Below are positions 11,446 through 32,800 of a DNA stretch of 38,787 nt, one piece after another. The notes beneath the pieces are model-generated. The model saw only the letters and a program-made list of their open reading frames with translations. It made no database searches and was not told the DNA's origin. The stretch is from contig NVTD01000003.1 of the NCBI GenBank assembly GCA_002401445.1, positions 1-38,787 on the forward strand. The letters run 5' to 3'. The first letter of the stretch is position 1, and each line of letters opens with the position of its first letter. Origin of the DNA: Candidatus Wolfebacteria bacterium (GTDB lineage Bacteria > Patescibacteriota > Minisyncoccia > Phycocordibacterales > GCA-2401445). The position numbers and the translations under genes are program-made.

Positions 11446-11623
11446 AGAACACATCCACAATCTCATGCTGTGCTGAAATTATCAAAATTTTTAGCTACAA
11501 ATTATAGTTTTCGCCGAGGCAATGTAAGCATTGTTGAGAAGAAAAGGATAATTTGTAGCAAAAATTTCGTAATTCTCAGCCAGCAAGTTTGTTTTTGCTA
11601 CGTTGAGATTGTGGATGTGTTCT
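11446..11623 (+). repeat. Structured hairpin element, copy 1
   Basis: The outer arms 11446-11465 and 11604-11623 are perfectly complementary over 20 bp. An inner stem pairs 11472-11481 with 11570-11580 (GCTGA, AATTA), 11485-11492 with 11560-11567, and 11494-11505 with 11548-11559 (12 bp perfect). A T-run/A-run helix (11508-11512 with 11541-11545) leads to an apical hairpin CAATG-TAAG-CATTG (11520-11533). A single A at 11493 bulges out. The same fold and apex occur at 20039-20196 (inverted) and 22884-23045. I do not recognise a named RNA or mobile-element family. Confidence 0.8.
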
Positions 11624-11817
11624 TGTATTCTATATAGAAATGGTAGCACATGTTTACAAGTTAATACATACTAAATAGTTGCCAGATTAAATACTAGTAT
11701 GTTATTGTATGGCCAGATTTCTGTTATTTGCGGAGTATCTGAAAGAAACAGAATAGTATCCTAGACCCGACAATCCTGTGATACACCAAAAGATACTCTA
11801 AGATCCTATCTAAGCCA
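11624..11817. other. Non-coding stretch, no gene recognised
   Basis: Between hairpin copy 1 and the terminator of DUF378 there is no open frame longer than about 20 codons. It contains a local stem (TTCTGTT near 11718 with AACAGAA near 11742). Because it ends in a bidirectional terminator, a plus-strand small RNA is possible, but I cannot identify a convincing promoter. Confidence 0.3.
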
Positions 11818-11858
11818 TAAAAACCCGGACAGTATTTCGCACTGTACGGGTTTTTTTA
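11818..11858. terminator. Bidirectional terminator downstream of the redox operon
   Basis: AAAACCCG and ACAGT pair with ACTGT and CGGGTTTT (about 11818-11857), with a T-run on the plus side and A/T-rich flanks on both. Confidence 0.8.
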
Positions 11859-11880
11859 TTTCCTTATTTCGTGGAAATCT

Positions 11881-12090
11881 CTATTTTGCTTTGCATGCCT
11901 TGCAATTTGCCTTGTGCTTTGCTAATTCATAGAGAGCTGAAATACCAACGGCTCCGTAGAATACGTCTCCCCAGGTTGATCCTGCACCACCTAAGAAATC
12001 AGTTAGGTTCCACCAATCAAGCAAAATTAGTCCATAATTAATACCGCCCAAAATAAGCAGTAGAAATGTTATGCAATGTAATCCTTTCAT
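11881..12090 (-). CDS. DUF378 small membrane protein
   Basis: 69 aa. It matches the DUF378 (YuzA-like) pattern: LHCITFLLLILGGINYGL, then a tryptophan-rich loop (LDWWNLTDFLGG) and VFYGAVGISALYEL, giving two membrane helices. Unlike typical members it ends in a CxxC motif (ANCKACKAK). Its position 41 bp behind VKOR suggests it belongs to the truB-dsbA-VKOR transcription unit, so the extra CxxC could be redox-linked, but this is an inference. Confidence 0.85.
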   Translation of the reverse strand: MKGLHCITFLLLILGGINYGLILLDWWNLTDFLGGAGSTWGDVFYGAVGISALYELAKHKANCKACKAK

Positions 12091-12131
12091 AATTAGGTTA
12101 CAAAATTAGTTGTGTTGTTAATAGTCGACTT

Positions 12132-12566
12132 TTACCTATTAACTATACCAGTGTGTGTATTATGTGCATCTGTGTTTTCCACAGTCCTCAACACAAGAAC
12201 TCCCAGAATAAATAGGAGAGTTGAAGTAAGAGCAGATCCCATACAATACAGACATATAGCGTGTAGTACGAATAATTGTATATATACAAAACCTAGTGAT
12301 GCGATAAATCCCAAAATAGTTAATTTGGCAGCAATTTTCAATACGCGTGTATTTTTTGTATCAAGAAACACAATTGTCATTACAACTATCAGTAAATAGT
12401 ACAAAGCTCCCAGCAATGCAACAGGTACTCCTCCGATAACCGCAAAATTACTAGTTAATACTTCCTCGCACCCACTAACTAAAGAGCATGGCGGAATAGA
12501 GTTCAGAAAATGCTCCACAGCTAAATACGTTGCATCTAAAAATCCTAGGACACCGATTGTTAACAT
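12132..12566 (-). CDS. VKOR-family quinone-linked disulfide oxidoreductase
   Basis: An integral-membrane vitamin K epoxide reductase homologue. In bacteria it reoxidises DsbA-like thioredoxins and passes electrons to quinone, replacing DsbB. With the start at ATG 12566 the protein is 144 aa. The loop cysteines are Cys27 and Cys33 (PPCSLVSGCEEVLTS) and the active-site CxxC is Cys105-Cys108 (AICLYCMGS). Landmarks GGVPVALLGALYYL and LGFVYIQLFVLHAICLYC are typical, with four membrane helices. ATG 12566 has AAGG about 8 bp upstream; an in-frame ATG at 12659 would overlap the dsbA-like gene by 77 bp. It lies 16 bp after that gene. Confidence 0.92.
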   Translation of the reverse strand: MLTIGVLGFLDATYLAVEHFLNSIPPCSLVSGCEEVLTSNFAVIGGVPVALLGALYYLLIVVMTIVFLDTKNTRVLKIAAKLTILGFIASLGFVYIQLFVLHAICLYCMGSALTSTLLFILGVLVLRTVENTDAHNTHTGIVNR

Positions 12567-12582
12567 CCATATTGCCTTATTT

Positions 12583-13362
12583 TTATAGTTTGGATTGTTC
12601 TTCACGAATGATTGAAATAAATTCCTCTGCAGTACTAAAACCAGACATTTTCTGTCCATTCAAAAAGAATGTTGGTGTTGAGGCAACGCCAGCCTTTAGT
12701 CCATCTCTATAATTATCACGCACAATACCTGTTACATCATTGTCATCCAGATCACTGTTAAATTGATCCATATCTAACCCAAGTCCTACTGCGTACCGGG
12801 CAAATTCCTCACGTACGTCTGCTGCAGTCATGGATCCCCACGTCGGTTGTTGATTAAACAATTCATCATGCATCTCCCAAAACATTCCTTGCTCACCTGC
12901 AGCTTCCGCTATCTCCGCAGCAAGTGTTGCGTTTGCATGTATCTGCGCGAGTGGAAAATGTCTATATACAATGGCTATTTCATCACCAAATTCTTCTGCA
13001 ACCTGTTGTACAAGTGGAAAGAATGATCGACATGCTGGACACTGAAAATCACTGTATTCTATAAGAACTAAATTAGAATCTCTATTACCTTTTACATTGT
13101 CACTTTCAGATACCTCGCTCACACTTGTACTAAGTCCTCCTCCATTATCTGTATTGTTGTACGAAACAATTGATATCATCCCCCACACAATAAATCCCAC
13201 GACTAAAATAACACCAGTCCACATACCGAATCTTTTCGTAGCCCTACTTCTCGTTTGAGAATCTCGTTCATTCTGCCTATCTTGTTTCCTTAATTCTTTC
13301 CTCTCTCTATTAGATAAATGTACATCTCCTTCTATTGGGGAATTTTGTTGTTCGTTTTCCAT
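12583..13362 (-). CDS. DsbA-like membrane-anchored thiol oxidoreductase
   Basis: 259 aa. A charged cytoplasmic N-terminus (1-44) is followed by one transmembrane anchor (about 46-67) and an extracytoplasmic DsbA/thioredoxin-fold domain. The active site is CPAC (108-111) in EYSDFQCPACRSFFP. The cis-proline loop is VASTPTFFLNGQ, and the helical insert (HANATLAAEIAEAAGEQGMFWEMHD) is typical of the DsbA/Com1 group. It should introduce disulfides into exported proteins, with the adjacent VKOR as its oxidant. It lies 7 bp after truB and 16 bp before VKOR on the same strand. Confidence 0.93.
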   Translation of the reverse strand: MENEQQNSPIEGDVHLSNRERKELRKQDRQNERDSQTRSRATKRFGMWTGVILVVGFIVWGMISIVSYNNTDNGGGLSTSVSEVSESDNVKGNRDSNLVLIEYSDFQCPACRSFFPLVQQVAEEFGDEIAIVYRHFPLAQIHANATLAAEIAEAAGEQGMFWEMHDELFNQQPTWGSMTAADVREEFARYAVGLGLDMDQFNSDLDDNDVTGIVRDNYRDGLKAGVASTPTFFLNGQKMSGFSTAEEFISIIREEQSKL

Positions 13363-13369
13363 AATAAGG

Positions 13370-14023
13370 CTATATTACCATATCAACATCACTAATCTGA
13401 AATTCTCCTATACTCGTACGTCTCAAAGATGACAATGTTGCTGGAATACCTAATCGATTTCCTATTTCTTCTGCAATAGATCTAATATAACTACCACTAG
13501 ATACTTTGATATCAAACGCAACTGAAGGACAATTATCAGTACTATTCTGATCAGAAAGTTTTGCATTCTCAATCCAAAAAATCTCCATTTCTCTTGTTGG
13601 AGTGTTCACAACCTCTCCCCTTCGTGCTTTTTTATACAAGGCTTCTCCCTTTTGCTTAATAGCAGAATATGCAGGAACCTTTAGCAATACCTTTCCGACA
13701 AGACCATTCAAAACGTCTTTATAATTTGCGACGATGTCAGAACTTGTACATTCTTGTTCTTCAATTGTCTTTCCTGTTATGTCACCAGTGTCTGTACGAA
13801 TTCCAAATTGAACTTCCGCCCTATACACTTTGGACATGCCAATATATTCTGTTAGCTTTTTTGTACCTTCATTAACACCAATAATCATTAGCCCACTCGC
13901 AAGTGGATCAAGAGTACCTGCATGACCCATTTTTCTAATACCAAGCTTTTTACGAAGCTTTCGTATTACATCAAACGAGGTAATTCCCGTTGATTTATCA
14001 ATAAGGAGAGTAGTTTTGTTCAT
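13370..14023 (-). CDS. truB: tRNA pseudouridine(55) synthase TruB, catalytic domain only
   Basis: Converts U55 to pseudouridine in the tRNA T-loop. The catalytic motif GHAGTLDPLASGLMIIGV carries Asp39. Other TruB landmarks are KSTGITSFDVIRKLRK, VPAYSAIKQKGEALYKKARRGE and VSSGSYIRSIAEEIGNRLG. At 217 aa it lacks the C-terminal PUA domain of the E. coli enzyme. It is probably the first gene of the truB-dsbA-VKOR-DUF378 operon. A TG-G-TACTAT box about 13 bp upstream of the ATG may be its promoter. A second, diverged TruB lies at 22110-22868. Confidence 0.94.
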   Translation of the reverse strand: MNKTTLLIDKSTGITSFDVIRKLRKKLGIRKMGHAGTLDPLASGLMIIGVNEGTKKLTEYIGMSKVYRAEVQFGIRTDTGDITGKTIEEQECTSSDIVANYKDVLNGLVGKVLLKVPAYSAIKQKGEALYKKARRGEVVNTPTREMEIFWIENAKLSDQNSTDNCPSVAFDIKVSSGSYIRSIAEEIGNRLGIPATLSSLRRTSIGEFQISDVDMVI

Positions 14024-14057
14024 AATTTAAAGAGTAATAGTACCACGCTAAAGACTA

Positions 14058-14087
14058 TTGTGTCGAGTCCAGATCACGTAGTATAAT
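14058..14087 (+). promoter_or_regulatory. Promoter of the RND efflux operon
   Basis: TTGTGT (14058-14063), an 18-bp spacer and TATAAT (14082-14087). It lies back to back with the truB start region. Confidence 0.6.
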
Positions 14088-14113
14088 TGCCACTCAATAA
14101 CTACCCAATATAC

Positions 14114-15733
14114 ATGAACTCCATTAAGGAATTAGTAAAGAACAACAAAAAAGTTTCGTTCACAATCACTGTTTTAGTGCTTATTTTACTATGGACGATA
14201 ACAAGACCTTCTTCTGTGGACACTTCTCAAATCGGATCACAGATACGAAGCGTGCAACTTACAAGTATTGCAATGCTTGCAGAGAGGGAGAGTACGATAC
14301 CTCTTACAGGACAAGTAAAATCTGAGAATGAGACAGCTATCAGATCACAAGCAAGTGGTGAAATAGTTCAAAACGCTATACCACGTGGATCTAGTGTTCG
14401 AGCTGGTGACATTATCGCAAGTATAGAAAATGCTTCAGAAAGAGCTTCCCTGACTCAAGCTCTCGGCACACGTTCGATAGCACAAGCACAACTTGCTAAA
14501 TTAAAAAGTGGTGCACAGGATGAGGAGCTATCAATACTAAAGGCAAACACTCGCACTGCAGAGAGTTCCCTTGAGACCAGCAAGACAGAAATATTTACGT
14601 CAGTAAGAAATGTTTATGAGGTTAGCGAGGATATCATTCGCAACAACATAGATCAGATGCTTATAAATCCAAGAAGTAAATACCCAAAAACAATTTTCTT
14701 TGTCTCCAATACTCAACTAGGAACAAAAATAGAGGACGCTAGATTCTTTATTGAAAAAATGTTGAAAACAAAGACAATATCAAACTGGATTCCAACAGTA
14801 ATTATCGTTCCTGCACCTGCTAATCTAAATGCGGAAATAGAACAAGCAAAAGAACGCCTCACCGCAACAGATTCATTACTAGATAACATGATCATTGCAG
14901 TTAACAGACTGACAGAGACTGCGACACTTTCTCAATCAACGATTGAGGCATGGAAGGGTTCCCTTTTTGGAGCACGTACAAAACTGACGTCCGCAGTTAC
15001 AAAACTAGATGATTCAATCACAGCACTCGAGAGTCCGCAGAACAATCTAATCATCGCCATAGAAAACGAAGTACTGGGTGTCCGTGGTGCTCGTTCTGAA
15101 GATATAGCAATAGCTGAAGCTTCAGTACTACAAGCACAAGGAGTATACGCATCAGCAAGAGCTCGTTTTGAAAAAACTCTCATACGTACACCGATTAGCG
15201 GAACACTTAACTCTCTTTCAATTGAACTTGGTGACATTGTAAGCAATAACGATATTGTTGGAATAGTATCTAATAACAGCACGCTTGAAATAGTTACCTA
15301 TGTGACAGGTGACGAGGTACCGAACATTAATGTTGGAAATACAGTAATCATTAGTAATGTGCACATTGGGTCCGTTACTTATATTGCCCCTGCAATAGAT
15401 AGAGATACCAAAAAAGTTGAAATTCGTATTGATGTACCTAGCTATATAAAACTTCTGAACGGACAGAGTGTATCAATTGAAATTACTCGCAATCCCATAC
15501 AGCTAGATACAATAGATGATATTCGAATACCTCTATCTGCTCTAAAGATTGCATTTGATGAGCACCTTGTATTCACAGTAGATGAAAACAATGCACTCAT
15601 TGCAAACAAAGTTACTACTGGATCCCTCATTGGAAACGACATAATCATACTAGAAGGAATATCACCAACTATGAATATAGTAACGGATGCACGAGGCCTC
15701 AAGGAAGGAGACATAATAACTATATTAAAATAG
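14114..15733 (+). CDS. RND efflux periplasmic-adaptor (HlyD/MFP family) subunit
   Basis: 539 aa from the ATG at 14114. A single N-terminal anchor (about residues 12-30, VSFTITVLVLILLWTI) is followed by the first half of a lipoyl-like domain (IPLTGQVKSENETAIRSQASGEI, then VRAGDIIASIENASERASL). A long helical hairpin and a second lipoyl half come next (FEKTLIRTPISGTLNSLSIELGDIV). The C-terminal beta-barrel/membrane-proximal part contains VIISNVHIGSVTYIAP and LSALKIAFDEHLVFTVDEN. The hairpin (about 100-330) is longer than in AcrA. The upstream TTG at 14087 is rejected as a start because it lies within the -10 box. The RND pump gene begins 1 bp after the stop. Confidence 0.88.
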   Translation: MNSIKELVKNNKKVSFTITVLVLILLWTITRPSSVDTSQIGSQIRSVQLTSIAMLAERESTIPLTGQVKSENETAIRSQASGEIVQNAIPRGSSVRAGDIIASIENASERASLTQALGTRSIAQAQLAKLKSGAQDEELSILKANTRTAESSLETSKTEIFTSVRNVYEVSEDIIRNNIDQMLINPRSKYPKTIFFVSNTQLGTKIEDARFFIEKMLKTKTISNWIPTVIIVPAPANLNAEIEQAKERLTATDSLLDNMIIAVNRLTETATLSQSTIEAWKGSLFGARTKLTSAVTKLDDSITALESPQNNLIIAIENEVLGVRGARSEDIAIAEASVLQAQGVYASARARFEKTLIRTPISGTLNSLSIELGDIVSNNDIVGIVSNNSTLEIVTYVTGDEVPNINVGNTVIISNVHIGSVTYIAPAIDRDTKKVEIRIDVPSYIKLLNGQSVSIEITRNPIQLDTIDDIRIPLSALKIAFDEHLVFTVDENNALIANKVTTGSLIGNDIIILEGISPTMNIVTDARGLKEGDIITILK

Positions 15734-15734
15734 C

Positions 15735-18700
15735 ATGTTTCCGGTCTGGAACTTTTTCCTGAGAAAAAAGCAATTCACATTTTTACTTGTTGGTGCTCTT
15801 ATTCTGGGTGGGTTTATTTCACTTCTCTCTATTCCAAAAGAATCAGCACCTGAAATTCAGATTCCAATAGGTATAGTTTCAACATTCATGCGCGGCGCAA
15901 GTCCAACAGATATTGAAGAACTCGTCACTAATCCTCTTGAAGACGAAATAACAAACTTGGACAACTTAAAAGAAATTACCTCTTCATCACGAGAGGCCTT
16001 CTCTACTATAGTTGTAGAGTTCAAGGCAAGCGCTGACATTGACGAATCAATAGAAGACCTAAAGGATCTCGTTGATAGGGCGAAAGCCCAACTTCCAAGA
16101 GATGCTGAGGAACCAACAGTTAGTGATGTGAATTTTGCTGATGAGCCAATACTACTTATTTCGATTGCTTCTGACATTCCAATAGCATCATTCTCTTCCC
16201 TATCAGAAACACTGGTGAGAGATCTGAAATCAATTTCTGGTGTGTCACGTATCGCATCAAGCGGTATCCCAGAAAAAGAAATACAAGTCATAGTGAGAAA
16301 AGAGGAACTTGAACAATTTAATCTTCGTCTTGTTGATGTTGTTAGTGCAATTTCCTCTGCTGATCTATCTATTCCTATTGGAACCATTACAACAAACAAC
16401 ATAGAGTACAGTATTAACCTAAAAAATAAAGTTGATACGGTAGAGGATATTGCAAGCATAACCATCACAGAGAGAAATGGTCATCCAATTTTTGTAAGAG
16501 ATGTAGCCTTCATATCAGATGGTATTGCAAAGACAAGTTCAAAATCTCGTTTAAGTGTAAATGGAAATCCGGCAGAGCAATCTCTTACTCTAACTGTGTT
16601 CAAAAATCGCGGAGCAAATATACTCGCTGTTACCGATACCATCGAAAAACGCTTGGTAGAACTTGAGGAAACCCTACTCAAAGACACTGTCGTACTCAGT
16701 ACTTTTTCTTCAGCAGAATTTATACGCGCGGACTTGAGCAATCTGAGTCGTAGTGGATTACAAACCGTATTACTTGTTATATTACTGCTGCTCATAACGA
16801 TTGGTTGGCGAGAATCTCTTATTGCAGGCCTTGCTATACCCCTATCCTTCCTTATATCATTTATTGGACTGCTACTTTCTGGAAACACTATTAATTTTAT
16901 TAGTCTTTTCGCACTCATACTAGCCGTAGGTATTTTGGTTGACTCTGCAATTGTCGTGACAGAAGCAATACACACAAAAGTAGACAATGGCACTGATTCA
17001 AAAACAGCAGCCAGAGAAACTCTCCGAGAATTTAGCTGGCCTCTCATATCAGGAACAATGACCACAATTGCGGCATTCTTTCCACTGTTCTTTATCTCTG
17101 GAATTACAGGGAAATTTATTGCAAGTATTCCTTACACAATCATTTTTGTGCTGTCAGCTTCATTGATAGTTGCCCTTGCGATCATACCTCTTGTTGCAAG
17201 CACGTTCATTCGCAGACGAAATACGCACACGTCCCTAAGGAAAAAACAAGAATACTATACACATTGTCTACAAAATTGGTACCGAGAGAAAATACACAAA
17301 CTACTTGGACATAGGAAACGAGAAAATATATTTCTAGTTGGAATTGTAGTTGCTCTTCTGTTGAGCTTTATACTTCCTGCTACTGGTGCGGTTCGGGTAA
17401 TATTCTTTGCACAAGACGATCAAGACTTTTTGTTTATTGATCTTGAGGCACGTGAAGGAACCACAATAGACCAGACTGATTTGGCTACACGAGCAGTTGA
17501 GGAAGTACTTTATGATGAGCCAAATATTGAATCATTCGTTACGACAATCGGTAGTACTAGCAACTTTACCAGTGGTCAGTCTGGTGGAAAGTTCGCAAAC
17601 ATTAGTATCAACCTTTACAAAAACAGAAGCGAAACGAGCGTTGTAATACTTAATCGCCTCAGAGAAAACACTATTGGAATACATGGCATAGACGTGTCAC
17701 TAGATCAACCCACCAACGGCCCTCCGGTCGGAAAACCTGTTGTTATAACATTCCTTGGACATGACGGGGAAGAGCTTGCTCGCGTGGCCGAGGGCGCGGA
17801 AAAGATACTTAAGGACATTGATGGTACAACCGACGTAGACACCAGCAGCAAGAACGACAGTATTGATATCATATTAACTATTGATAGAACAAAGACTATT
17901 GAAGTTGGACTGTCTCCACAAATAGTGGCTCAAACGCTTCGTAGTGCTGTTGCTGGAAGTGTCGCAACAACTGTTCGAAAAGATGGAAAAGACGTAGATA
18001 TTGTTGTTGCTTTAAATCTAAATAAAGACTACAGAAACCCACATGAACATGCACACGTAACCATAGATTCACTACGTCAGATGACAATAGAAGGTCCAAA
18101 GGGTTCAGTACTTATAGGGTCACTTATTACTGCAACTCCTCAAAAAGGAGCTGGCGTTATTTCACACAAAGACAGAAAACGTACCACATCAGTTGAGAGC
18201 GAACTCCTCGACGGATTTAGTGCACGAGAAATTAACAAAGAATTCACTGCTAGACTAGACGAACTGAATATTGGAAATTCAGTCACTCTAGATATTGGTG
18301 GAGAAAGTGAGGACCTTGATCAGTCATTCCGTGATATGTTTGTTGCCCTCATTTTTGGATCGGTATTAATGCTGAGTATATTGATACTCCAATTCAACTC
18401 GTTCCGATATGCATTCTTTATCATAATAATCGTTCCCTTCTCGCTTATTGGTATCCTTGTAGGTCTTGCAATAAGTGGAAAGGCACTATCATTCCCTTCT
18501 ATCATGGGATTCATAACACTCTCCGGTATTGTGGTAAATAATTCAATTATTCTTATAGACGCTATAAACCATAGACGAAGAGCGCACCCAGAAATTGAAA
18601 TCAGAGAACATGTTATAGAAGGAACAGTGTCGAGACTACGTCCCATTCTGCTTACAACGGTAACAACGGTTATTGGTATATTCCCTCTTGTGTTCGCTTC

Positions 18701-18821
18701 TGATCTATGGGGACCACTTGCTTACGCTGTTATGTTTGGACTTTCGTTCGCGGTGATACTTACTCTTATTCTAGTTCCGCTACTTTACAATAGATGGCCA
18801 GGGAAAGAACTCCCTGAATAA
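15735..18821 (+). CDS. RND-family (AcrB/HAE1-like) efflux transporter
   Basis: 1028 aa, full length for the family, with 12 predicted membrane helices and two large extracytoplasmic loops. It begins with the usual short helix and first TM (WNFFLRKKQFTFLLVGALIL). The TM4 motif reads AVGILVDSAIVVTE (Asp403-Ser404), where AcrB has two Asp. The TM10 region reads SGIVVNNSIILIDAIN (about residue 935), with Asn where AcrB has the relay Lys. Such variants occur in other RND subfamilies, so the protein may still be active. It forms a 1-bp-spaced operon with the adaptor gene. No outer-membrane factor gene is present. The substrate is unknown. Confidence 0.92.
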   Translation: MFPVWNFFLRKKQFTFLLVGALILGGFISLLSIPKESAPEIQIPIGIVSTFMRGASPTDIEELVTNPLEDEITNLDNLKEITSSSREAFSTIVVEFKASADIDESIEDLKDLVDRAKAQLPRDAEEPTVSDVNFADEPILLISIASDIPIASFSSLSETLVRDLKSISGVSRIASSGIPEKEIQVIVRKEELEQFNLRLVDVVSAISSADLSIPIGTITTNNIEYSINLKNKVDTVEDIASITITERNGHPIFVRDVAFISDGIAKTSSKSRLSVNGNPAEQSLTLTVFKNRGANILAVTDTIEKRLVELEETLLKDTVVLSTFSSAEFIRADLSNLSRSGLQTVLLVILLLLITIGWRESLIAGLAIPLSFLISFIGLLLSGNTINFISLFALILAVGILVDSAIVVTEAIHTKVDNGTDSKTAARETLREFSWPLISGTMTTIAAFFPLFFISGITGKFIASIPYTIIFVLSASLIVALAIIPLVASTFIRRRNTHTSLRKKQEYYTHCLQNWYREKIHKLLGHRKRENIFLVGIVVALLLSFILPATGAVRVIFFAQDDQDFLFIDLEAREGTTIDQTDLATRAVEEVLYDEPNIESFVTTIGSTSNFTSGQSGGKFANISINLYKNRSETSVVILNRLRENTIGIHGIDVSLDQPTNGPPVGKPVVITFLGHDGEELARVAEGAEKILKDIDGTTDVDTSSKNDSIDIILTIDRTKTIEVGLSPQIVAQTLRSAVAGSVATTVRKDGKDVDIVVALNLNKDYRNPHEHAHVTIDSLRQMTIEGPKGSVLIGSLITATPQKGAGVISHKDRKRTTSVESELLDGFSAREINKEFTARLDELNIGNSVTLDIGGESEDLDQSFRDMFVALIFGSVLMLSILILQFNSFRYAFFIIIIVPFSLIGILVGLAISGKALSFPSIMGFITLSGIVVNNSIILIDAINHRRRAHPEIEIREHVIEGTVSRLRPILLTTVTTVIGIFPLVFASDLWGPLAYAVMFGLSFAVILTLILVPLLYNRWPGKELPE

Positions 18822-18837
18822 ACCTGCAACAAAAAAT

Positions 18838-18876
18838 TACCCACCCTCTGATTTACAAAGGATGGGTTTATTTTTG
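18838..18876 (+). terminator. Intrinsic terminator of the RND operon
   Basis: ACCCACCCT (18839-18847) pairs imperfectly with AGGATGGGT (18859-18867), followed by TTATTTTTG. Confidence 0.65.
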
Positions 18877-18883
18877 TGGGTAA

Positions 18884-19141
18884 CTATACTTCGCAAGAAG
18901 CCTTCTGTTGTCGCTCATAAATGTAGGTGATTAATTGTTCAGCCGTCCATGTCCTACCGTTACTCTTGATGGTAATATTAAGATCGGAGCCGAGTTCCTT
19001 GAGTGTCGCATCAAGGACTTTCGGTACATCTTCACTCCTGATTACCGCTTCAAGATTCATATCACTCACTTGATTATGCGTACACTCAGCAATCACGCGC
19101 TGCATTCGAGTACGAATCCAATCTATTTCACATGTATTCAT
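18884..19141 (-). CDS. Hypothetical protein, 85 aa
   Basis: No family recognised. It is a small soluble protein; the end (SNGRTWTAEQLITYIYERQQ) loosely recalls acyl-carrier-type helices but there is no DSL phosphopantetheine motif. The start is decided by a textbook Shine-Dalgarno AGGAGG placed 8 bp before ATG 19141. An in-frame GTG at 19150 overlaps that site and is rejected. Three cysteines are present near the ends. Confidence 0.65.
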   Translation of the reverse strand: MNTCEIDWIRTRMQRVIAECTHNQVSDMNLEAVIRSEDVPKVLDATLKELGSDLNITIKSNGRTWTAEQLITYIYERQQKASCEV

Positions 19142-19227
19142 ACATCTCACCTCCTTTCTTTTTTAGGTTCAATCACGCCCTGTACTTACTGTAATCATAT
19201 ACCTCATTATAAATTACACAAGTAAGA

Positions 19228-19256
19228 AAAAACCCCGCAAAAAACGGGGGTTTTGT
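19228..19256 (-). terminator. Intrinsic terminator
   Basis: AACCCCG pairs with CGGGGGTT around an A-rich loop; on the minus strand it is followed by TTTTTTCTT. It closes the gene at 19268-19945. Confidence 0.75.
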
Positions 19257-19267
19257 TAAGCAATCGG

Positions 19268-19945
19268 CTATCGAATTGCTGTAAATGCTTCTTTTATAGC
19301 ACACATTGTACTCGTGTGTGCATATATTCTCTGTGTTTCTGAAATGTTCGTACCACTCCGTCTTACAATGGGCTGCAATTTTTCATTAGGGTGACCAAAG
19401 TTAAATAAGTGTCCATTTCGCTCCCCAACTCTGCGAAAACCAAGTGATGATGATCTACAACAAGTGAGCATTCCGCTTCCTTCTTTGTACAAAATTTCTG
19501 GAGGTATGTACAATGCGAAAAATGTACGATGCCATACTTGATTAGTTTTTTTGTAGACATCCCGATTGGTAATAACTTCTTTAACCTCGCTCAAATGGGT
19601 TAAATAATAGAATGCCATACGCCAACTAACTTCACTGACTATAAACCGCACAAGGGCAAACTTTCTAAACTTTTCTCTTGTAAACATCCAAAGGTCATGT
19701 TTATTTAGTTGTCCATGCACAAGAGCTTCCGCAGAATATGCACCTCGACGACTCCTTCCTGTCTTTGGATCATCCTCCGCTTTTGGCAAAATATACAAGA
19801 ATAAATTTTCTGGATCCCTATTCACCTTAACACCACTTGTTACCGCCTTTCCCTTATTGTCATGACTTAATACGAACAGTCCTACACAGAAATTTTTCTG
19901 CTGTTTTGTATCCATTATATTTTTTTTATCAAAAACCAAAAACAT
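19268..19945 (-). CDS. Hypothetical protein, 225 aa
   Basis: No family recognised. It is soluble and basic, with aromatic-rich segments (WRMAFYYLTHLSEVKEV, VWHRTFFALYIPPEILY) and a paired Cys (LTCCRSSSLGFRR). The start is uncertain: ATG 19945 gives 225 aa and ATG 19915 (MDTKQQKNF) gives 215 aa; neither has a Shine-Dalgarno sequence. A CGACAC/GTGTCG hairpin (19960-19975) and the structured element copy 2 lie directly upstream. The gene is a single unit with a terminator at 19228-19256. Confidence 0.6.
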   Translation of the reverse strand: MFLVFDKKNIMDTKQQKNFCVGLFVLSHDNKGKAVTSGVKVNRDPENLFLYILPKAEDDPKTGRSRRGAYSAEALVHGQLNKHDLWMFTREKFRKFALVRFIVSEVSWRMAFYYLTHLSEVKEVITNRDVYKKTNQVWHRTFFALYIPPEILYKEGSGMLTCCRSSSLGFRRVGERNGHLFNFGHPNEKLQPIVRRSGTNISETQRIYAHTSTMCAIKEAFTAIR

Positions 19946-20038
19946 CCCACTAAATCGTACGACACACTCGTGTCGATATATAGACGATTTGTAGTTTGGT
20001 GCCTATTTTCCAGTATACCACTCTTATCGCACACCTAC

Positions 20039-20196
20039 GATCTCAACGAGATTAGTAAAAAATGAATCTTGCCGACTGAAATTAGCAAAATTCCCACTAC
20101 AAATCAGTGTATTTTCTCTCACTAATGTTCACATTGCCTCGCAAAAATACATAATCTGTAGCAAAAATTTTGTCAATTTCAGCACGACATGAGATC
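20039..20196 (-). repeat. Structured hairpin element, copy 2 (inverted)
   Basis: Read on the minus strand it follows copy 1 closely. Pairings: 20039-20045 with 20190-20196 (GATCTCA/TGAGATC); 20076-20083 with 20175-20182 (CTGAAATT/AATTTCAG); CTACAAAT 20097-20104 with 20154-20161 (one mismatch); TATTTT 20110-20115 with AAAATA 20144-20149; and AATGT/ACATT (20124-20128 with 20131-20135) at the apex. The GCGAGGCAATG apex flank is the same as in copy 1. The element lies upstream of the unknown gene at 19268-19945. Confidence 0.8.
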
Positions 20197-20234
20197 ATAG
20201 CTGTGCTCATATAAAATAAGTAACCTTTTTTTAA

Positions 20235-20810
20235 CTATCCGTCAATATCAGATAATCCATCATGAATATGATCTTTTATAGCCTTGCCATGTGCCTTAAA
20301 AATAACTCGCTTTACTTTTCTTGGATTTGCCATTCCTCTCATCTCAAAATTTCTCCCTGCTCCAGCAGTCTGAACATGTATTGTGCCAAATTTCAAAAGT
20401 GTCGGAATAATACCATTCATTTCTACTGTAACATCCTGAATGCGCCGCAACCTAAAACTAGAAACATTTCTATTAAAAATTCCTTTTTGTTCGATATCAA
20501 ATATACGCTGATTAGTAACGATCCAAACATCCAAATAATAGTCAGTCCAGATCAAGAAAAATACAGTCAAAGTGACCAGCAACCATCCACTATATATAAA
20601 AGCAAAAAGAGTTTCTGGATTCGCAGAGAAAATCGCAATAGCGTCGCTACCAAAAATGAACGTAAGGCCATTTATAAGAACATCCAAAAATGGTGTAAAA
20701 AATATTGGAAGTAACCCAGCAACAATAATAAATAACGCTTCCAAGACAAATATCAACCAGTGTTTGCGTGCCTTCATTATTACATGTTCATTTTTATGTA
20801 AACTTATCAT
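20235..20810 (-). CDS. Membrane protein with bacterial PH domain (YdbS-like)
   Basis: 191 aa. Two membrane helices (about residues 19-38 and 72-92) precede a bacterial PH (bPH2/YdbS) domain: VWIVTNQRIFDIEQKGIFNRNVSSFRLRRIQDVTVEMNG, then GTIHVQTAGAG. The end is basic. The start ATG 20810 overlaps the stop of the upstream small gene as ATGA, which indicates translational coupling. A longer reading of the frame upstream is rejected because it would overlap that gene almost completely. The role of the family is unknown. Confidence 0.88.
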   Translation of the reverse strand: MISLHKNEHVIMKARKHWLIFVLEALFIIVAGLLPIFFTPFLDVLINGLTFIFGSDAIAIFSANPETLFAFIYSGWLLVTLTVFFLIWTDYYLDVWIVTNQRIFDIEQKGIFNRNVSSFRLRRIQDVTVEMNGIIPTLLKFGTIHVQTAGAGRNFEMRGMANPRKVKRVIFKAHGKAIKDHIHDGLSDIDG

Positions 20811-21043
20811 GTTGCTATAAGTGCTACTGTCGATATATAAAATGCAACTAACAAAACAGCTCCGAGTACCAAAAATATAGTTTGCATTACAGGTATCCAT
20901 TTGTCTCCTTTTAATCTGTATCTTTTCCAATGAAAAAGAAGTATAAGAGACATGATTAAAAATAGAGCAACAACAATCCAAAATGTAATCCAGATACGGT
21001 CTGGGGTAATAGATACTGTTAGAGCATTGGAAATGTCATTCAT
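20807..21043 (-). CDS. Small two-helix membrane protein
   Basis: 78 aa with two predicted membrane helices (about 18-37 and 53-75) separated by a short basic loop (HWKRYRLKGDKW). No family recognised. It is coupled by an ATGA overlap to the PH-domain gene, so the two products probably act together at the membrane. The -10 box TACAAT (21055-21050) ends 6 bp before the ATG. Confidence 0.75.
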   Translation of the reverse strand: MNDISNALTVSITPDRIWITFWIVVALFLIMSLILLFHWKRYRLKGDKWIPVMQTIFLVLGAVLLVAFYISTVALIAT

Positions 21044-21049
21044 AAACTT

Positions 21050-21055
21050 ATTGTA
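21050..21055 (-). promoter_or_regulatory. Extended -10 box for a leaderless membrane gene
   Basis: On the minus strand TG-C-TACAAT is followed by exactly 6 bp and then the ATG at 21043. Confidence 0.55.
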
Positions 21056-21175
21056 GCAAGCCAGGATGTCCTAGCAATGTACTACTGTATATATTGCAGC
21101 CCGACATCATAAATAAATGGTGAATGCTCCCATTACCTGATACCATATACAAATTACTAGTTAGGGAATAAAAAT

Positions 21176-21493
21176 ATGAGTAAATTTATATTGCTAATTA
21201 AAGGCGGTAGTCCAGATGATTCTAATAGAGATGAAATTATGGGTAACTGGAAATCTTGGGTGGGTGGTTTGAGAGAGAAAAGTGTTTTGGAAGACATGGG
21301 CGCATTTGAGGAAAACGGAAAAAACATAACCGGATCAGACAAAACGGTATCTGACTACGTGGCTGAGGTTGGAGGATACATGATCATAAATTCAGATAGC
21401 TTAGACTCTGCAACCGAAATAGCAAAAGGATCACCTTCACTTACTCTTGGAGGTAGTGTTGGGGTACATCCAATCCAAGACATGGGTCTGTAA
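21176..21493 (+). CDS. YCII-related domain protein
   Basis: 105 aa matching the YciI/DGPF family: KFILLIKGGSPDD, WKSWVGGLREKSVLEDMGAF, and the C-terminal VGGYMIINSDSLDSATEIAKG with LGGSVGVHPI. These are small alpha/beta ferredoxin-like proteins, some with proposed enzymatic roles. The exact function is unknown. It precedes a SRPBCC protein of the same strand, separated by an inverted repeat; both families often occur together in small-molecule or stress contexts. Confidence 0.85.
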   Translation: MSKFILLIKGGSPDDSNRDEIMGNWKSWVGGLREKSVLEDMGAFEENGKNITGSDKTVSDYVAEVGGYMIINSDSLDSATEIAKGSPSLTLGGSVGVHPIQDMGL

Positions 21494-21525
21494 GAAATAC
21501 GTCAACCTGAACATAAGCGAGTATT

Positions 21526-21561
21526 AATAATGGAGACGGCCTATGGTGGCTGTCTCCATTA
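21526..21561 (+). terminator. Inverted repeat after the YCII gene
   Basis: ATAATGGAGAC pairs with GTCTCCATTAT with an imperfect inner stem. There is no long T-run after it, so it may be a weak terminator or an mRNA stabiliser. Confidence 0.5.
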
Positions 21562-21575
21562 TCTATCCCTATTAT

Positions 21576-21604
21576 TTCTGACACCTTTTACTAATTAATA
21601 CTAT
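21576..21604 (+). promoter_or_regulatory. Promoter of the SRPBCC gene
   Basis: TTCTGA (21576-21581), a 17-bp spacer and TACTAT (21599-21604). The -10 box ends 5 bp before the ATG, so the mRNA is probably leaderless. Confidence 0.5.
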
Positions 21605-21609
21605 TTAAT

Positions 21610-22011
21610 ATGTCACAAATCGAAGAAACACGGGTATACAGTGCCACACCAGCAGAAGTCTGGGACAAAATAGGAGACCCAGGAAAGATAAACGAATGGC
21701 ACCCGGTAATCCCAAAGTGTGAGACAGATGGAGACAATCGTACTTGTACTCTTTCTGATGGAGCTGTTATTAAGGAGCAAATCATAAGCCATGATGATGA
21801 GAAGATGATTTATACTTACAAAATTCTTGAGAGCCCTCTTCCGATACGCAATTATGAATCCAGTGTCTCGGTTACGCCTGAGGGTGATGGAGCTAAAGTT
21901 ACATGGGCAAGTCAATTTGAAGTAGTTGATGCTCCTGCGGATGAAATAGAAGGGGCTATACGCGGCATATATGTAGCAGGATTAGAAAACCTTGATACAA
22001 AATTTTCGTAA
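21610..22011 (+). CDS. SRPBCC (START-like) protein
   Basis: 133 aa. It fits the SRPBCC/polyketide-cyclase-2 pattern: VYSATPAEVWDKIGDPGKINEWHPVI near the start, CTLSDGAVIKEQIISHDDEKMIYTYKI in the middle, then VTWASQFEVVDAP and a C-terminal helix. The fold is a helix-grip hydrophobic pocket. The ligand is unknown. A strong terminator follows at 22047. Confidence 0.85.
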   Translation: MSQIEETRVYSATPAEVWDKIGDPGKINEWHPVIPKCETDGDNRTCTLSDGAVIKEQIISHDDEKMIYTYKILESPLPIRNYESSVSVTPEGDGAKVTWASQFEVVDAPADEIEGAIRGIYVAGLENLDTKFS

Positions 22012-22046
22012 AGATACATATAATTTTCTTACATCAGGGGTGGATC

Positions 22047-22076
22047 ACAAAACACACGCAATTGCGTGTGTTTTTA
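22047..22076. terminator. Intrinsic terminator (perfect palindrome)
   Basis: ACACACGCAA pairs with TTGCGTGTGT with flanking A-run and T-run. It lies between the SRPBCC gene and the convergent second TruB gene. Confidence 0.85.
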
Positions 22077-22109
22077 ATGCAAAAATAATATTTTTTTACT
22101 TATCTAAAA

Positions 22110-22868
22110 CTATTCCGAATCCTCCACAGAATAGTTCCCTACCCTAATACGTTTCAATTCTAGAATACACGCAGGTATCCCAAGTCTCTGTCCTAGCTCG
22201 TGTACAATGGTTCTCACGTAAGTACCACTAGAGCAATGAATAGTGAATGTCGCTTCAACATATTTCTTATTCACATCAATCACATCCTCCCATCGTTTTG
22301 CTATTACCTCTTGTCTAAAATCTCCCTTAACATCTGCGACACGACTTTTGATTATTTCCAATATAATATCTCCAGATTGTTTTTCATAATTATTCAAAAC
22401 TATTCCACCAACAGTCACAGAACGTTTTGGTCTTTCAATAGTATGTAATGCACCGTCCCGTGCGAATCGAAACAATGGTTTCCCATTAACCGTCTTTGAT
22501 GAATACGGGGGGTATGTTTGATCATACGTTCCAATAAAAAACTTCGACTGCATTTCTATTTCCTTTTTATTTGGAACAGTATCAACTTGCGTCATTACCT
22601 CTCCCAAAATATCATATGTATCCGTAGAAAATCCAAACAAGACTTTTACGACATACTCCTTTCCCAATGCGAGATACTTATTTTTTTCATATCTCTCTTC
22701 ACCGGCAAGTACAAGCAAGACGCCTTCTGCTATTGGATCGAGACGTCCCGCATATGTCATGGGCACATCAATATATTCTTTGTGCGTATCACGAAAACGC
22801 TCGATGCAGGCAAGTGGTGTTTCTCCTTTTCTTTTGTATAAATTGAGAACCTTGTTCATGATATGCAA
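22110..22868 (-). CDS. Second TruB-family pseudouridine synthase
   Basis: 252 aa, a diverged TruB-family enzyme with the catalytic motif TYAGRLDPIAEGVLLVLAGE (Asp44). Other landmarks are YPPYSSKTVNGKPLFRFAR, CSSGTYVRTIVHELGQRLG and ILELKRIRVGNYSV. Like the first TruB it has no PUA domain. The motif differs from the classical GHxGTLDP (here YAGRLDP), so its target base may differ. The start is ATG 22868 or the in-frame ATG 22859 (MNKVLNLYKRKGETP); neither has a Shine-Dalgarno sequence. The gene is divergent from hisS, and element copy 3 sits between them. Confidence 0.87.
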   Translation of the reverse strand: MHIMNKVLNLYKRKGETPLACIERFRDTHKEYIDVPMTYAGRLDPIAEGVLLVLAGEERYEKNKYLALGKEYVVKVLFGFSTDTYDILGEVMTQVDTVPNKKEIEMQSKFFIGTYDQTYPPYSSKTVNGKPLFRFARDGALHTIERPKRSVTVGGIVLNNYEKQSGDIILEIIKSRVADVKGDFRQEVIAKRWEDVIDVNKKYVEATFTIHCSSGTYVRTIVHELGQRLGIPACILELKRIRVGNYSVEDSE

Positions 22869-22880
22869 ATCGGATACACT
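22852..22880 (+). promoter_or_regulatory. Candidate promoter of hisS
   Basis: TTGTTC (22852-22857), a 17-bp spacer and TACACT (22875-22880). The predicted start near 22887 falls at the 5' base of hairpin copy 3, so the whole element would be the hisS leader. Confidence 0.4.
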
Positions 22881-22883
22881 ATA

Positions 22884-23045
22884 AGAACTCAGAGACTATA
22901 TCATGTCAGGGCGAAATTCTAGAAATTTTTGCCACATCATGTGTTTTTTGAAGAAACAATGCAAATGAGCATTGTTGATGAGAAAAACGCAGGATGTGGT
23001 GAAAATTAATGAATTTCACCCCACATGAGATGGTGGAAGAGTTCT
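22884..23045 (+). repeat. Structured hairpin element, copy 3, abutting hisS
   Basis: Pairings: AGAACTC 22884-22890 with GAGTTCT 23039-23045; TCATGT 22901-22906 with ACATGA 23023-23028; GAAATT 22913-22918 with AATTTC 23012-23017; AATTTT 22924-22929 with AAAATT 23002-23007; CCACATC 22932-22938 with GATGTGG 22993-22999; GTTTTT 22943-22948 with AAAAAC 22983-22988; and apex CAATG 22957-22961 with CATTG 22970-22974. The CATTGTTGAtGAG flank matches copy 1. The main stem differs in sequence but keeps pairing, which is the mark of a conserved structure. Confidence 0.78.
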
Positions 23046-23048
23046 ATA

Positions 23049-24284
23049 ATGAAGGAGAAAGGTGAAAAAAATCTATCAACAGAACCGTACAAAGGTGTAC
23101 GGGATTTTTATCCTGAAAGCCAAAGTATACAGAACTATATTACAGACGTCTGGAAAGCCACAGTTGAGAGCTTTGGATACCAAGAATACAATGCCTCAAT
23201 ACTTGAGCCATCAGACCTTTATAGGGCCAAAACTGGCGAGGAAATCGTCAATGAGCAAACATATACATTTACAGACCGTGGGGACAGAGAAGTCACTCTC
23301 AGGCCAGAAATGACCCCTACAGTAGCCCGTATGATCGCTAAAAAGCGCAAAGAACTCTCTTTTCCTCTACGATGGTACTCAACGCCTAATCTATTCAGAT
23401 ATGAACGCCCGCAGCGTGGTCGTTTGCGTGAGCACACCCAGCTAAATGTAGACTTTTTTGGTATTGATACTATCGATGCAGAAATCGAGCTTATTTCTAT
23501 TGCGAGCACATTATTAACCAATTTTGGGATGAGCCCAGAGCAATTCGAAATACGTATAAACGATCGTGCTGGAATGAGTAAAGCATTCAGTGAAATGGGT
23601 CTATCTGATGACCAAACATACAAAATGTACAAATTACTTGATCGCAAAAAGAAAATTGATAACTTCGATGAAGAGGCAGAGAAAATAATAGGAGCCCCTC
23701 TTGATCTTTCAAAAGTGAAAAGCATTGCGGTTACTAAACTCATCAGACAGTTAAACGAAATTGGCATAACGAATGTTAAATACGACCCCTCAATAATTCG
23801 AGGATTTGATTATTACACCGGTATTATTTTTGAAGTGTTCGACACAAGTTCAGAGAACAATAGATCACTATTTGGTGGAGGACGTTACGATAACCTTCTG
23901 GATATTTTTGGAGTTGACCCTGTTCCCACTGTCGGATTTGGAATGGGAGACGTAACTATACGAGACGTTCTTGATACCTATGGTTTACTTCCAGAAGTAA
24001 TATCTACAACTGACCTTTCGATATGTGTTACAAAACCAGAATACAGAGATTTTGCAACCCTGCTTGCCAAAGACGTTCGTGCACAAGGAGTAAACGTATC
24101 TGTGAATTATTCAAACAAAAAAGTTGGCGACCAGATACGATATGCGGACAACAAAAAAATCCCCTACATCACCTGTATTGGTGATGATGAGGTAAAAGGA
24201 GAAACGTTTAAAATAAAGGAGCTTGCTACAGGAAAGGAAACTGAAGTGACTAGAAACACTGTCACGGAAGCATTTGTTGAATAA
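23049..24284 (+). CDS. hisS: Histidyl-tRNA synthetase
   Basis: A class II aminoacyl-tRNA synthetase that charges tRNA-His. Motif 2 is RWYSTPNLFRYERPQRGRLRE, followed by HTQLNVDFFG. The histidine-specific motif is RGFDYYTGIIFEVF, and motif 3 is GGGRYDNLLDIFG with TVGFGMG. A C-terminal HGTP anticodon-binding domain follows (LSICVTKPEYRDFATLLAKD). From ATG 23049 the protein is 411 aa, the usual size. An in-frame ATG at 23025 lies inside the hairpin element and is rejected. The stop overlaps the start of the exonuclease gene (TAATG). Confidence 0.95.
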   Translation: MKEKGEKNLSTEPYKGVRDFYPESQSIQNYITDVWKATVESFGYQEYNASILEPSDLYRAKTGEEIVNEQTYTFTDRGDREVTLRPEMTPTVARMIAKKRKELSFPLRWYSTPNLFRYERPQRGRLREHTQLNVDFFGIDTIDAEIELISIASTLLTNFGMSPEQFEIRINDRAGMSKAFSEMGLSDDQTYKMYKLLDRKKKIDNFDEEAEKIIGAPLDLSKVKSIAVTKLIRQLNEIGITNVKYDPSIIRGFDYYTGIIFEVFDTSSENNRSLFGGGRYDNLLDIFGVDPVPTVGFGMGDVTIRDVLDTYGLLPEVISTTDLSICVTKPEYRDFATLLAKDVRAQGVNVSVNYSNKKVGDQIRYADNKKIPYITCIGDDEVKGETFKIKELATGKETEVTRNTVTEAFVE

Positions 24285-32689: not shown

Positions 32690-32718
32690 AAATTTAAATT
32701 CTAAAAAATTTAAAACAT

Positions 32719-32790
32719 TTGACATGTGACCATTAACCTTTGACTACCACTTCGTCCTGTCTTGTCCTTAAGTCAATGGTCACATGTCAA
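32719..32790. repeat. 16-bp perfect inverted repeat between rpsM and rpsK
   Basis: TTGACATGTGACCATT (32719-32734) is perfectly complementary to AATGGTCACATGTCAA (32775-32790). The 40-bp spacer adds a TGACT/AGTCA pair (32741-32745 with 32771-32775). No T-run follows on either strand, so it is not a standard terminator. It lies in the only large gap within the infA-rpsD block. Confidence 0.85.
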
Positions 32791-32800
32791 TTGTTAATCG

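Follow-up and report, generated by a model that had tools for sequence, protein, structure and literature searches.

The window analysed here, a stretch of 38,787 nucleotides from a Candidatus Wolfebacteria bacterium (GenBank assembly GCA_002401445.1, contig NVTD01000003.1), carries three copies of a long imperfect hairpin that a first-pass annotation had described as an unrecognised structured element. With a probability of roughly 85%, the copies belong to a family of miniature inverted-repeat transposable elements (MITEs) derived from the IS5 family of insertion sequences (ISs), whose hairpin is selected on one strand and, once folded, would serve the propagation of the element itself rather than the neighbouring genes. 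The evidence comes from the covariation and strand asymmetry of the hairpin, from terminal inverted repeats (TIRs) bordered by 3-bp target duplications, and from IS5-family elements that share the same ends.

Fold and Distribution of the Element

The three segments share one hairpin fold, as had been proposed. With 200 dinucleotide-preserving shuffles per segment as the control, all of them beat every shuffle in folding (0/200 as good; z −11.4, −7.5, and −11.1), and they align together as one family. A DNA search with copy 1 as the query found further copies to be plentiful in the window's genome, of which 17 were oriented and aligned. Their consensus fold obtained with RNAalifold is one long hairpin composed of a 20-bp outer stem and an inner rod, between which the 3′ side carries a short arm that is unpaired or forms a hairpin. 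A covariance model of the whole element (R1), built after this alignment, matches 28 places in the 1.12-Mb genome at E < 1e-6, copy counts for this genome being those given by the searches, and finds elements in 29 of the 148 genomes searched, the window's own included, with a patchy distribution among relatives. Most elements are 160–185 bp long, typically ~180 bp, and no plausible coding gene lies inside the copies; their ends are TIRs of 19–20 bp, GARCC...GGYTC, around the long imperfect hairpin.

A second model (R2) describes the interior alone, with the TIR and all sequence from the window's genome left out of its training. It recovers all three window copies (E values below) and detects the interior hairpin in 47 of 380 genomes across the Patescibacteria phylum, some of them with 8–9 scored copies. 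In distant lineages, the same interior is found inside diverged ends (GAGACCTCTGCG..., GGTGGTCTAAAAAC..., and GACCTACTGCTTAA...), and it occurs there in two builds, one of ~185 bp with the 3′ arm and one of ~162 bp without it. A known Rfam family was not found at gathering score in the window, and the elements give only sub-threshold, unrelated matches in permissive searches. The end pattern was not found in the viral contigs of IMG/VR, and phage records gave nothing beyond short chance matches.

The coordinates of the window copies and their parts are listed below. The bounds drawn in the first-pass annotation hold within 1 nt for copies 1 and 3, whereas copy 2 had been cut ~12 nt short on each side.

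11447..11622, + strand: copy 1, whole element, GAACA...TGTTC, 176 bp (fold z −11.4; R1 177.8 bits; R2 E 7.6e-15)
11447..11465, + strand: copy 1, left TIR GAACACATCCACAATCTCA, perfectly complementary to 11604–11622
11466..11585, + strand: copy 1, conserved interior hairpin, matched by the interior-only model R2
11586..11603, + strand: copy 1, 3′ side arm, unpaired or short, from the interior hairpin to the right TIR (alignment, fold)
11604..11622, + strand: copy 1, right TIR, complement of the left TIR
20027..20208, − strand: copy 2, whole element, 182 bp (R1 147.1 bits; fold z −7.5 for the inner part)
20190..20208, − strand: copy 2, left TIR (minus-strand 5′ end)
20070..20189, − strand: copy 2, conserved interior hairpin (R2 E 1.4e-10)
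20027..20045, − strand: copy 2, right TIR (minus-strand 3′ end), partly decayed
22885..23044, + strand: copy 3, whole element, 160 bp, without the 3′ side arm (fold z −11.1; R1 122.1 bits)
22885..22903, + strand: copy 3, left TIR
22904..23025, + strand: copy 3, conserved interior hairpin (R2 E 1.5e-7)
23026..23044, + strand: copy 3, right TIR, ending 4 nt ahead of 23049, where hisS probably starts

Selection for One Folded Strand

Covariation in the window's genome was examined in a MAFFT alignment of the 17 copies over 63 pairs, with shuffles and slid registers as controls. Two-sided changes occur in 31 of the 63 pairs, against 16.3 in shuffled alignments and 7–12 in slid registers, in line with the compensatory changes reported earlier from the three copies. 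Among 32 copies from relatives, 45 of 61 pairs show two-sided changes; for these, a MAFFT alignment (A6) replaced one fitted to the covariance model (A4), in which misregistered pairs inflated the A-C count (G-U 179, A-C 155). The sequences are related and their counts are not independent events, and the covariation and strand figures are to be read as strong indications rather than as formal probabilities.

The mismatches point to the strand on which the fold is kept; the orientation of the elements was fixed by sequence and not by energy. A G-T on one strand is an A-C on the other, and equal counts of the two would therefore be predicted for a cruciform as well as for a palindrome maintained by conversion. 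Single-step departures from the commonest pair instead give G-U:A-C ratios of 95:12 in the window's own genome and 69:12 in relatives. The excess is found for A-U as well as G-C pairs (66:8 and 29:4 in the own genome; 25:5 and 44:7 in relatives), so that a single directional mutation is no explanation for it, and the TIR stem alone shows it too (30:6). In addition, the top strand folds better than its complement in 21 of 21 own, 65 of 67 related, and 24 of 24 phylum-wide elements, that is, in 110 of the 112 patescibacterial elements, and the folding asymmetry between the strands is greater with RNA than with DNA parameters. A DNA cruciform, one of the forms first suggested, is contradicted as the selected form by these mismatch ratios and strand counts.

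Among the most conserved positions are an unpaired G and A around a single pair beside the apical stem, which correspond to the "GAG-type flanks" noticed earlier at the apex and are in fact G/A mismatches. The single pair between these conserved positions swaps between C-G and G-C (13:19), and the unpaired G and A of the GCGA/GCAGC internal loop are likewise among the most conserved positions. Collectively, at the level of sequence comparison, these patterns show that selection on the folding of one strand, the TIR stem included, keeps the internal hairpin across the phylum.

Ends and Target Duplication

A reading of the flanks places the borders of intact elements at GARCC...GGYTC between TWA trinucleotides. 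Of 88 elements with recognisable ends, 23 are flanked by TAA/TAA and 17 by TTA/TTA, mixed pairs being rare, and the middle flank base is equal on both sides in 61 (69%), compared to 41% by shuffling (z 6.1); the same 88 elements give no signal for duplication lengths other than 3 bp. As an independent check, GTDB genomes were scanned with the left-end pattern, and partner ends and duplications were counted by hand. The scan found 64 stretches, nearly all in Patescibacteria, and the partner end could be located for 56 of them; 47 of these paired-end elements have an identical TWA on both sides, and four have a swapped TAA/TTA. The search for target-site duplications that had been advised revealed a 3-bp TWA at copies with intact flanks. 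Young copies in relatives are often at contig ends, which is expected because repeats break assemblies. As to the insertion sites, one copy in the window's genome (contig region G000:C14:37490, loci L018/L033) interrupts a 14-bp inverted repeat, CCCATACTGTCCTT...AAGGACAGTATGGG, and intrinsic terminators adjoin several other copies, making a target preference possible.

The left-end pattern was also found in three Betaproteobacteria, namely Brachymonas, Crenobacter, and Herbaspirillum (L267–L296). Brachymonas has 74 + 76 ends, mostly paired ~160–190 bp apart, with the duplications TAA, TTA, TCA, and TGA, i.e., TNA. The betaproteobacterial hairpin elements, with up to ~75 copies in a 2.4-Mb genome, have the same ends and TNA duplications, and a strand asymmetry of the same kind is seen in their interior. 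The interior model R2 does not match them, indicating that they share ends, target, and overall shape with the patescibacterial elements, but no detectable interior homology; by eye only, their GCAAATC...GATTTGC and G/A loops look similar to the patescibacterial ones.

Probable Partner Transposase of the IS5 Family

A 44-nt query made of both ends matches a gene on Xanthomonas plasmids that carries the annotation "IS5 family transposase". The IS concerned is 849 bp long, with the TIR GAACCTGTTCACGATCTT and the duplication TTA, and a search of 397 genomes from the window's order for its DDE protein gives 62–63% identical homologues in two of them and a single weak match besides. One genome (G045) contains a full 859-bp IS with the TIR GAGCCTGTTCACAATCT and two more end fragments at contig ends; another (G349) has a truncated copy ending in GAACCCATCCACTATCT, which differs by 1/17 mismatch from the ends of two MITEs in the window's genome, and the left TIR of copy 1 is likewise close to such IS5-family TIRs. 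In a further genome (G487), an IS (GAACCTGTTCAAAATCT, TTA/TTA) and a MITE (GARCCTGTTCAAAATCT) with common ends occur together. IS5-family elements sharing the MITE ends are known from Xanthomonas, G045, G349, G457, and G487. The transposase proteins tested (G045 and Xanthomonas) are split over two frames, contain DUF4096 (PF13340) and DDE_Tnp_1 (PF01609), and match NCBIfam NF033580 (transpos_IS5_3). The partner IS is probably IS1031-like; insertion at a 3-nt site characterises the IS1031 group within IS5 (PMC2516522). NF033580 is found in 16 of the 380 phylum genomes, with several weak matches, and five of the 16 carry the hairpin.

The PF01609 transposases of element-bearing relatives were considered as partners and rejected, being mostly of another kind with the ends ACTTTGAATTACGAAA; PF13340 gave no match in 18 element-bearing genomes.

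Position Relative to Genes and Alternative Explanations

The copies are intergenic and near gene ends, and they are oriented at random towards their neighbours, 30 being same-sense, 32 antisense, 15 convergent, and 16 divergent. The statement that all copies precede genes holds only loosely, given this random orientation across the family. No bias between leading and lagging orientation was detected by flank GC skew. One-strand selection combined with random gene orientation suggests a role for the fold in the cycle of the element itself and not in host mRNAs, and it rules out both a plain DNA cruciform and a riboregulator fixed in the host's service.

Several points weigh against the reading of the family as IS5-type MITEs with a functional folded strand. 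The weakest point of the mobility argument is the absence of a transposase from the window's genome, which has no match to PF01609, PF13340, or NF033580, implying that mobilisation there is past or was due to an enzyme missing from the assembly. An IS5-family transposase of the partner kind was not found in the 17 other element-bearing genomes tested either, and the co-occurrence of NF033580 and the hairpin across the 380 genomes is weak (5/16, Fisher p 0.036). The flanks of the window copies are decayed, with a full target duplication absent from all three; these copies are old, and the same seems to hold for the majority of the genome's 28 places. The mobility of the family is read from ends, duplications, and shared ISs in a genome set with one genome per species, and the role of the folded strand is one that we infer. 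Furthermore, 75-bp derivatives (L179, L184, L248, and others) that keep both ends but have lost the inner hairpin exist as several copies and carry target duplications, which speaks against a strict need for the hairpin.

The same derivatives favour an ordinary MITE, in which template switching or gene conversion between the arms would hold the palindromic interior symmetric and the folded strand would be functionless. The ends are those of a transposon, and arm-to-arm conversion is able to yield two-sided changes in palindromes. Such conversion is strand-neutral, yet G-U is in excess over A-C (95:12 and 69:12) and the better fold lies on one particular strand in 110 of 112 elements; the unpaired loop G and A are highly conserved while the pair between them swaps (13:19), and the interior remains recognisable phylum-wide, all of which make this explanation unlikely. 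A structured RNA that was spread by transposition and acts as a host cis-regulator or mRNA processing signal, similar to NEMIS or ERIC RNA, would be compatible with one-strand structure and with the intergenic positions near gene ends. In particular, only 4 nt separate the end of copy 3 from the probable start of hisS, for which this copy could provide the ribosome-binding site. The structure is strand-specific, yet the orientation to genes is random, and the occurrence in related genomes is patchy; we consider a host role improbable, and the structured cis-regulator envisaged in the first-pass annotation is not borne out as a property of the family.

An element of the IS200/IS605 or REP type, mobilised in single-stranded form by a Y1 transposase, would account for one-strand hairpin selection, which is typical of Y1 systems, and Y1/RAYT genes are common (32 of 49 genomes, three in the window's genome). 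Y1 insertion leaves no target duplication, in contrast to the 3-bp duplication found here, and copy-rich genomes without a Y1 gene exist (G138, 11 matches), by which Y1/RAYT is ruled out as the mobiliser; the match of the ends to IS5-family elements and the lack of strand bias relative to GC skew leave such an origin very improbable. RAYT-like Y1 transposases of ~205–290 aa are in themselves frequent in the window's order (G000–G147), often as several diverged copies per genome. Among the possibilities raised at the outset, a mobile MITE-like hairpin is the one that accords with the many copies, the TIR, the 3-bp duplication, the matching IS5-family transposase, and the lack of an Rfam family. 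A small RNA, likewise among these possibilities, may also be compatible with the selection seen on one folded strand.

Structural Variants and Neighbouring Features

Long versions of 281–402 bp occur in one Taylorbacteria genome (L165 1001–1402, L166 1001–1349, L167 1001–1369, and L168 1001–1281). They contain nested hairpin modules, with a ~34-bp unit, GTCGACA...TGTCGACACCTGTAGAC, at several places, as well as a branched insert of ~90 nt and a GC-rich arm, CCCGCCCG...CGGGCGGG. The GC-rich arm is present in three genomes, the window's included (L044 1501–1713, L108 928–1145, and L168 1001–1281), each time at the same internal loop (ATTTG^CAGC-like). In another case (L170 1001–1344), a standard element hosts a nested element with different, TATA-flanked ends (CCCTCCCCAATTAA), whose core AAATTTCGAGCGAAA...TTGTAGCCGAAATTT resembles the standard one.

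In the window, the hisS open reading frame opens within copy 3 (ATG 23025), the ATG at 23049 being the likelier start; with the latter, a possible ribosome-binding site, GGAAGAG, would be contributed by the right TIR of copy 3 at a distance of seven bases upstream. A separate inverted repeat of 24 bp, 92% complementary and with a 34-nt loop, is located at 32714–32795 amid ribosomal protein genes.

Comparison with Known Systems

The RUP element of Streptococcus pneumoniae is a 107-bp, intergenic sequence with many copies, whose TIR is shared with the autonomous IS630-Spn1, by which it is thought to be mobilised in trans (PMC2229807). The present family is similarly short, intergenic, and multicopy, with ends common to an autonomous IS. 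RUP belongs to IS630, targets TA, and is described in one species, whereas the present family belongs to IS5, has TWA/TNA targets, extends over the Patescibacteria phylum and into Betaproteobacteria, and has an interior with a conserved one-strand structure. Correia/NEMIS, ERIC, YPAL, and similar elements are ~100–200 bp long, and their transcripts are predicted to form long stem-loops; these small palindromes have 5′-TA termini, or duplications of 3–26 bp in the case of YPAL (PMC2229807). They resemble the present elements in size and folded form, but differ in ends, targets, and sequence, and none is from Patescibacteria in the literature searched.

Folded RNA structure is also a property of bcr1 repeats, which the present elements resemble in size, mobile features, and folded form. 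The bcr repeats of the Bacillus cereus group are 100–400 bp long with mobile features and a mean of 39 bcr1 copies per strain (PMC6542083); their mobility is tied to TTTAT motifs (PMC6542083) within one species group, unlike the IS5-type ends with TWA found here. A further likeness is to the NF033580 (IS5_3) ISs, which in some lineages have the terminal 16–18 bp identical or nearly so and the same 3-bp TNA-type duplication. These ISs are ~850–910 bp long and code for a transposase, and the hairpin interior is not part of them.

Proposed Mechanism and Implications

An IS5-type DDE transposase supplied in trans would recognise the element ends and move the copies; in the window's genome, this transposase may since have been lost or may be absent from the assembly. 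The folded strand, more probably a full-length RNA than single-stranded DNA, would take part in the propagation of the element, possibly as a binding partner of the transposase or of a host factor, or as protection for an intermediate. The RNA is favoured because of the larger asymmetry with RNA parameters and the conservation of the G/A loops. A bolder and more doubtful proposal, put forward only tentatively, is that of a SINE-like bacterial parasite (short interspersed nuclear element), in which a phylum-conserved structured RNA or single-stranded DNA, ends included, would be recognised in an IS5-type DDE mobility cycle; its interior module would have been joined to diversified transposon ends and would gain extra hairpin arms internally.

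No description of such elements in Patescibacteria was found in the literature searched, which covered few subscription papers; as far as it reaches, the family would be the first MITE family from this phylum, with the mobilising enzyme family named. Moreover, the family offers evidence of selection for a single folded strand in a bacterial MITE, separating RNA or single-stranded DNA function from mere palindromy, a long-standing doubt for small bacterial palindromes such as ERIC and NEMIS, and its covariance model could serve as a phylum-wide marker.

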